Shown in pieces: positions 1-57,766 of a stretch of 64,000 nt of DNA. How positions within the stretch are numbered: position 1 is the stretch's first letter; every line of letters starts with the position of its first letter. The position numbers and the translations under genes were made by a program. The stretch is from Burkholderiales bacterium. Its GTDB lineage: Bacteria > Pseudomonadota > Gammaproteobacteria > Burkholderiales > SG8-41. Location: contig JAUXMZ010000035.1 of NCBI GenBank assembly GCA_030683105.1, positions 62,001 through 126,000 of the forward strand, in the 5' to 3' direction. The notes beneath the pieces are model-generated. The model did not search any database. It had not been told where the DNA came from and was given only the letters and a program-made list of their open reading frames with translations.

Positions 1-827
<827 letters not shown>

Positions 828-924
828 CTGCCTGCCAGAGGGAAATGCAGAAAGTTACCGTAAATGGCTCGCGCCGATTCTGTAAACCCGCGGCAACCGG
901 TTTATATGCTTAACAATTTTCCTG

Positions 925-948
925 TTATTCACATTGTCTTGTGGATAA
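925..948. promoter_or_regulatory. Two inverted DnaA boxes upstream of priA
   Basis: TTATTCACA at 925-933 reads on the plus strand. TGTGGATAA at 940-948 is TTATCCACA on the minus strand, identical to the E. coli R1 box. They face each other with 6 bases between. Both match the TTATNCACA consensus exactly. They lie about 100-120 bp upstream of the priA start. DnaA binding here is inferred from sequence only. Confidence 0.6.
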
Positions 949-1114
949 TTTGGTTGATAAAGGCGCCCTGGCTTCAGAATAGCAACAGGGGCGGCCCCAG
1001 ACTAGATGCGATGCGCCAGGAACGCGATAGATTATTTCAATAATAACAATTACTTAGAGTTTGGCGTTTGTCGAGGCATGCCATCTCTCTGGCGGAACGC
1101 TGGCAAGGCCTTGT

Positions 1115-1123
1115 TGTGTATAA
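1115..1123 (-). promoter_or_regulatory. Third DnaA box in the hemE-priA gap
   Basis: TGTGTATAA on the plus strand is TTATACACA on the minus strand, an exact TTATNCACA match. It lies 42 bp from the hemE stop and on the opposite side of the AT-rich patch (1027-1056) from the other two boxes. Confidence 0.5.
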
Positions 1124-1165
1124 GTTTCCTGAGCCGGCGCCTGCCGAAGCCGGGCGTGGGCCCGG

Positions 1166-2227
1166 TCAGTGATGAGCCCGGCTCAACTCGTGTACCGCAT
1201 CGACCAGCGTCGCAACGTGCTCCGGCGGCGTAAACTGCGAGATGCCATGTCCCAGATTAAAGATATGTCCGCTGCCGTGACCATAGGCGTCGAGAACCTG
1301 CTGTACCTGCCCGCGGATGATTGCCGGCTCGGCAAACAGGACGGCAGGATCAAGATTGCCCTGTAACGCAACGCGGTCACCCACGCGCCGCCGGGCAGCA
1401 CCGATATTCACGGTCCAGTCCAGCCCCACGCCGTCGCAGCCTATGGCAGCAATATCCTCCAGCCACAGGCCGCCACCCTTGGTAAATACGATGCTGGGGA
1501 TGATCGCGCCATCGTGCTCGCGCTTGAGACCGGCAATGATGCGTTGCAGATAGGCCAGAGAAAACTCGCGATACGCGGCATCGGCAAGCGCGCCGCCCCA
1601 GGTATCGAAAATCATCACAGCCTGAGCACCGGCCTCGATCTGCGCGTTCAGGTAATCGATCACGGCACGGCTATTAATATCGAGGATATGGTGTAATAGC
1701 GCCGGCTGCTGGTAGAGCATGGTTTTGACAAGGCGAAAGTCAGCGCTCGCTCCACCTTCTATCATATAGCAGGCAAGCGTGAATGGGCTTCCTGAAAAGC
1801 CGATGAGAGGCACTTCGTCGGCCAGTGCACGCCGGATCTGGGACACGGCATCAATCACATAACGCAGATGTACAGAGGGGTCGGGAACGCGCAAATTGCG
1901 GATTTCCCACTCTTCACGCAAAGGTCGCTCGAATTTCGGGCCTTCGCCATCGGCAAAATAAAGGCCCAGGCCCATGGCGTCGGGGATGGTCAGGATGTCG
2001 GAAAACACGATCGCGGCATCCAGCGCATAGCGCGCCAGGGGCTGCATCGTAACCTCAGTCGCATAGTCCGGATTCTTGCACAGACCCAGAAAATTTCCGG
2101 CGCGCGCGCGCGTCTGGTTGTATTCGGGGAGATAACGCCCCGCCTGCCGCATGACCCACACGGGCGTGTATGGCGTGGGCTGCCTGAGCAGCGCGCGGAT
2201 CAGCGTGTCGTTTTTGAGTTTCGTCAC
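1166..2227 (-). CDS. hemE: Uroporphyrinogen decarboxylase
   Basis: HemE decarboxylates the four acetate side chains of uroporphyrinogen III to give coproporphyrinogen III in cytoplasmic heme synthesis. The signature [11 protein letters not shown] sits near residue 26, [17 protein letters not shown] follows mid-protein, and the C-terminal half carries FDTWGG and GNLDPAVL. I chose the GTG at 2227, giving [17 protein letters not shown] and 353 residues, because this matches the usual N-terminus of the family. A TTG two codons upstream (2233) is also open. The gene follows gltD by 28 bp on the same strand and may be the last gene of a gltB-gltD-hemE transcript. Identification is secure; only the start is uncertain. 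Confidence 0.96.
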
Positions 2228-2255
2228 TTGCAATAGGCCGGGTTCATTAAATGAT

Positions 2256-57676: not shown

Positions 57677-57766
57677 CGTGTGTTAGGTTCGCGGCAAAGC
57701 GGGCGATCAGATGTTTATACACAACGTTTGATTCTGTCACAAAGCGCCCGCGGCACGAACCACACG
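57677..57766. repeat. Long imperfect inverted repeat in the YyaL/SNF divergent promoter region
   Basis: The left arm (57677-57705) has CGTGTG, GGTTCG and GCGGGCG blocks; the right arm (57745-57766) has the complements CGCCCGC, CGAACC and CACACG in mirrored order, with small indels between blocks. The 39-bp AT-richer core contains the candidate YyaL promoter. Confidence 0.5.
57714..57742 (-). promoter_or_regulatory. Candidate promoter of the YyaL-family gene
   Basis: On the minus strand TTGTGA (57742-57737), a 17-base spacer and TATAAA (57719-57714), 41 bp before the ATG. The -10 also overlaps a TTATACACA 9-mer at 57715-57723. Confidence 0.5.

Follow-up and report, generated by a model that had tools for sequence, protein, structure and literature searches.

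We describe an arrangement of DnaA boxes and a predicted IHF site in the gap between the hemE and priA genes of a Burkholderiales bacterium, which, as judged from its sequence, is best read as a module that works like the datA site of E. coli, which restrains the start of replication, though we do not claim that it is datA. The region was studied in a window of 64 kb, namely positions 62001-126000 of contig C37 of a 78-contig, 4.12-Mb draft assembly, and in the genomes of its relatives, where the predicted module recurs across the Betaproteobacteria and some Gammaproteobacteria. The sites datA, DARS1 and DARS2 were worked out in E. coli, and our search of the open-licence literature found no earlier report of the module outside the relatives of that organism. 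A DnaA-IHF module with fixed spacing across an order and beyond provides exact sites for testing in other bacteria, and its position may tie the control of initiation to a gene for replication restart.

The DnaA box consensus TTATNCACA occurs exactly three times in the 338 bp of the hemE-priA gap, just where the earlier note had placed the boxes (Table 1), with one more exact site in the 64-kb window at 57715, against an average of 0.84 sites in whole-window shuffles. The 4.12-Mb genome has 43 exact sites in all, of which only the three of the hemE-priA gap lie within 400 bp of each other. Simple arithmetic from these 43 sites gives an expectation of about 0.0035 per 338 bp, and makes three in one gap an event of about 1e-4 even when corrected for all such windows. 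The gene calls of the earlier note also hold, both genes being on the minus strand, with the start of priA at 827 and the end of hemE at 1166, as does its AT-rich patch at 1027-1056, where 26 of the 30 positions are A or T. Its suggestion that the patch is an unwinding element fares differently: the patch instead holds an IHF-consensus site, and is by this token a predicted IHF-type site at a fixed place. No RNA element of Rfam was matched in the gap. A reading of the inverted box pair as an NrdR-like or CRP-like site was dropped, as the alignment conserves the mid box and not the palindrome.

Table 1. Features of the hemE-priA region, in window coordinates
Feature	Position	Strand	Basis
priA (primosomal protein N'), 5' part; continues left of the window	3..827	-	NCBIfam matches
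hemE-priA intergenic gap, containing the whole module	828..1165		gap length and module conserved in the family
Inverted DnaA box TTATTCACA, 15 bp beyond the mid box; corresponds to datA box 4	925..933	+	exact
Mid DnaA box TTATCCACA; geometrically equivalent to datA box 3	940..948	-	exact consensus; better conserved than any other feature in the alignment
Weak DnaA box TTATCAACC, head-to-tail with the mid box and 12 bp upstream of it	952..960	-	at most two mismatches at -12 in 136 of 157 elements (see text)
IHF-consensus site TAACAATTACTTA, matching WATCAANNNNTTR at 8 of its 9 fixed positions	1044..1056	+	within the patch 1027-1056; site start precedes the mid box by 108 bp
Far DnaA box TTATACACA; geometrically equivalent to datA box 2	1115..1123	-	exact consensus; 24 of the 25 family gaps place it 174-181 bp from the mid box
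hemE (uroporphyrinogen decarboxylase)	1166..2233	-	NCBIfam TIGR01464

The general layout of the module is a DnaA box, 66-79 bp, an IHF site, 107-112 bp and a second DnaA box, and the full arrangement is found at the hemE-priA boxes alone among the 43 exact boxes of the genome. Its regularity was gauged in 157 elements selected with a search pattern; these are related to each other, and counts among them do not amount to independent events. In 98 of the 157, an IHF site matching 8 or all 9 of the fixed positions lies 107-112 bp before the mid box, whereas other blocks of equal width yield 0-5; in these 98 it is always in the minus orientation when read along the direction of the mid box. The IHF site was no part of the pattern. 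In Pseudomonas elements just 3 of 24 such sites reach 8 of 9 positions, though 22 of the 24 reach 7 of 9. The distance from the far box to the IHF site is bimodal, being mostly 66-70 or 75-79 bp, with modes about one helical turn apart. The offset of the weak box is exact, being -12 in 136 of the 157 elements and never -11 or -13; the pattern itself fixed three bases of this box, and the family alignment, which was built without the pattern, also displays it. An inverted box with at most two mismatches stands at +14 in 71 of the 157.

Box conservation in close relatives, which the earlier note had named beforehand as a test able to refute it, proved to be strong. The order hemE-gap-priA is kept in nearly all loci read from the 74-genome family, and in 24 of the 25 family gaps longer than 250 bp two boxes of the same direction lie 174-181 bp apart. 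Shuffling of the same 25 gaps yielded such a pair in 10 of 2,500 cases, and no IHF site scoring 8 of 9 or more accompanied any of them. Four other family gaps are just 53-70 bp long and have no module. As most of the sequence between the boxes is unconserved in the alignment, we infer that the boxes themselves are held by selection. At the level of the order, the pattern TGTGGATAANTNTGT-N155..172-TGTGNATA matched in 114 of 250 genomes and its reversed control in none; many true cases, among them that of the window, escape this exact pattern. The matches listed from a wider collection, at least 117 in number and not to be taken as frequencies, include Azoarcus, Nitrosomonas, Ralstonia, Pandoraea, Polynucleobacter, Dechloromonas, Paraburkholderia, Duganella, Pseudomonas, Marinobacter, Solimonas and Nevskia, while a few from distant phyla are probably due to chance.

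In E. coli, datA (the DDAH locus) requires boxes 2, 3 and 7 together with one IHF site; its essential boxes are unidirectional, their spacing matters, the locus lies near oriC, and IHF bending is thought to join the DnaA molecules of boxes 2 and 3 (PMC5742627, PMC10380432, PMC4585315). When datA of E. coli K-12 was run through the same script, it gave box 2 (+), an IHF site of 9/9 (-) at +65, box 3 (+) 97 bp on and box 4 (-) a further 12 bp on. The order and directions are thus alike in datA and the module, namely a box (+), an IHF site (-), a second box (+) and an inverted box (-): by consensus, two predicted high-affinity boxes of the same direction flank one IHF site in the E. coli orientation. 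The box-IHF intervals are 67 and 108 bp in the window and 65 and 97 bp in datA; more generally, the short interval of datA (65 bp) compares with 66-70 or 75-79 bp in the module, whereas the interval from the IHF site to the second box (97 bp) is about one helical turn shorter than the 107-112 bp of the module. The two differ in their neighbors, datA being downstream of tRNA-Gly genes and the module beside priA, and they share a position near oriC, at least in the family of the source genome (28 kb from the dnaA-dnaN gap), though not in all other families.

The resemblance suggests an off-oriC datA-like site, at which IHF bending would let DnaA inactivate itself after initiation, and we give this reading about an even chance of being right. 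IHF would bind at 1044-1056 and bend the DNA sharply; the bend would place the DnaA of the far box (1115-1123) beside that of the mid, weak and inverted boxes (925-960); and DnaA-ATP would be hydrolysed at the looped module, holding back extra initiations. The genome encodes DnaA, IHF-alpha, IHF-beta and Hda. Binding of DnaA and IHF, looping and the sign of the effect (inactivation and neither reactivation nor mere titration) are all inferred, the last of these being the weakest link in the mechanism. The proposal draws support from the fixed order, orientation and helical spacing of the parts and from their deep conservation, as well as from the short distance to dnaA in this family, from the IHF and Hda genes and from copies of the module that lie outside promoters. 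The suggestion in the earlier note of a DnaA titration or control site gains support, and can be sharpened to a putative datA-like module with conserved DnaA-IHF spacing.

Certain features weaken the datA-like reading. In the module, the weak box is found 12 bp ahead of the mid box, the second of the strong boxes; in E. coli datA, by contrast, the low-affinity box, TTGTAAACA, which we take to be box 7, precedes and adjoins box 2. The inverted box lies at +14, as in the DARS cores, or at +15, as in the window, and not at +12 as in datA. Further, priA and the module are far from dnaA in some genomes, 1.2 Mb away in one (G273); few Pseudomonas IHF sites reach 8 of 9 positions; and 29 of the 30 order-level loci fetched adjoin priA (the other adjoins yifB), which suits a link with that gene. 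Tentatively, and with lower expectation of being correct, we extend the proposal: datA-type DnaA-inactivating sites might be widespread in the Beta- and Gammaproteobacteria, taking the form of a portable DnaA-IHF module; E. coli datA would then be one rearranged form of this module, which in the Betaproteobacteria would be coupled to priA. If this were true, the control of initiation and replication restart would share one switch in the Betaproteobacteria.

The main rival holds that the module is a promoter region of priA controlled by DnaA and IHF, where looping by DnaA would repress the gene for this replication-restart helicase or set the timing of its transcription. We consider it unlikely, if deserving of serious attention, given the persistence of priA as the neighbor: beyond the 29 of 30 order-level loci, priA adjoins 46 of the at least 117 collection matches listed, the module remains with priA where hemE is not adjacent, and the mid box lies 115-128 bp before priA across most of the family. 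Against it, a scan of 700-1250 for a sigma-70-like promoter found none in the gap, and the far box is about 300 bp upstream. With no such promoter found and the paired boxes lying 98-121 bp from the start codon, the idea of the earlier note that these boxes cover the -35 position of priA is unsupported. Moreover, the same module occurs at other loci: in Pseudomonas it lies just downstream of a methyltransferase gene (24 of the at least 117 collection matches listed, e.g. L079:5059-5245), in Paraburkholderia at the 3' end of yifB, which codes for a Mg-chelatase-like ATPase (L047:4724-4907), in P. veronii between convergent genes (L060:4078-4262), in one locus (L211) between uvrC and mutL, and elsewhere in the xseA-exbB gap. 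Such copies, for instance those of the P. veronii convergent gap and of uvrC-mutL, lie outside promoters. Control of priA by DnaA, as raised in the earlier note, may still fit the persistent neighborhood, but leaves the copies at other loci unexplained.

Another view, which we regard as decidedly improbable, is that of a DARS-like site reactivating ADP-DnaA. In their 14-bp offset the mid and inverted boxes match boxes I and II of DARS, IHF sites are found in DARS2 at a comparable distance, and conservation of the spacing within DARS2 is reported for some beta- and gammaproteobacteria (PMC5742627). However, the DARS1 and DARS2 core needs box III, and a third box at the corresponding position (+26) was found in just 1 of the 157 elements; the conserved strong far box beyond the IHF site also has no DARS2 counterpart in that orientation. 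Still less do we favor a site that simply titrates DnaA and has no catalytic role: high-affinity boxes near oriC, as in the family of the source genome, would suit it, but an IHF site and fixed helical spacing are unneeded for pure titration. Off-oriC clusters of DnaA boxes that restrain initiation are known from Bacillus subtilis and Streptomyces (PMC10950094), and resemble the module in being DnaA boxes away from oriC; IHF, by contrast, is for the most part a proteobacterial protein (PMC10380432).

The genomic context points to a chromosomal origin elsewhere. The genes dnaA, dnaN, gyrB, rpmH, rnpA and yidC (the last five named from their sequences) are found about 27 kb to the left on this contig, whose cumulative GC skew bottoms at C37:33947, about 29 kb from the module, and already rises through the hemE-priA gap. 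The dnaA-dnaN gap (C37:34782-34973, equivalent to L005:14782-14973), about 28 kb from the module, combines several DnaA boxes with a GC-rich stretch and, ahead of dnaN, a TTACTACTATTATT tract. This is the layout of a DnaA-trio origin, and when the corresponding gaps of relatives were read in register, about 14 of 17 displayed, by eye, boxes and a similar tract. This gap, situated at the GC-skew minimum, looks like the real oriC. The distance from dnaN to priA is about 27-37 kb in six relatives of the family. In G111 no cumulative-skew minimum lies at the module, in a genome whose skew is weak, as it likewise is in G273. The module does resemble the right half of E. coli oriC (the R4 region), where a strong box TTATCCACA has a weak box, ACAGAGTTATCCACAG, 12 bp upstream; however, the outer boxes R1 and R4 of oriC are opposed, whereas those of the module are co-directional, and the module is away from the skew minimum and has neither an unwinding element nor a DnaA-trio, its AT-rich patch being the predicted IHF site. 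That the module is the chromosomal origin, as the earlier note had entertained, or a second origin is hence hardly credible, despite its DnaA boxes, IHF site, AT-rich patch and place 27 kb from dnaA, being contradicted by the skew minimum, the oriC-like dnaA-dnaN gap and its distance from dnaA in other genomes. The parallel drawn with hemE at the Caulobacter origin likewise fails, as the module follows priA even where hemE is not adjacent.

Partial modules and duplications were also observed. In the source genome, a site in the divergent gap between xseA and an ExbB-TolQ-like gene (C1:25324, L303:3325) has its far box at 180 bp and a poor IHF site, and has counterparts in three other genomes (G067, G068 and G070). 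A reading of the xseA modules of genomes with short hemE-priA gaps as relocated was rejected: they represent a second site that is present in the source genome too, with no evidence of movement. Another site of the source genome, about 1 kb from an aldehyde reductase gene (C16:54689, L304:4690), has a strong box accompanied by a weak one at -12 and an inverted one at +14, with the far box absent. Upstream of priA in E. coli there is one weak box only. On plasmid pSCD of Sulfuricella denitrificans, a hemE gene occurs without a neighboring priA (L042:8007-9071). Finally, in some genomes (L130, L145, L172 and L173) the hemE-priA gap carries tandem copies of the module about 460-470 bp apart.
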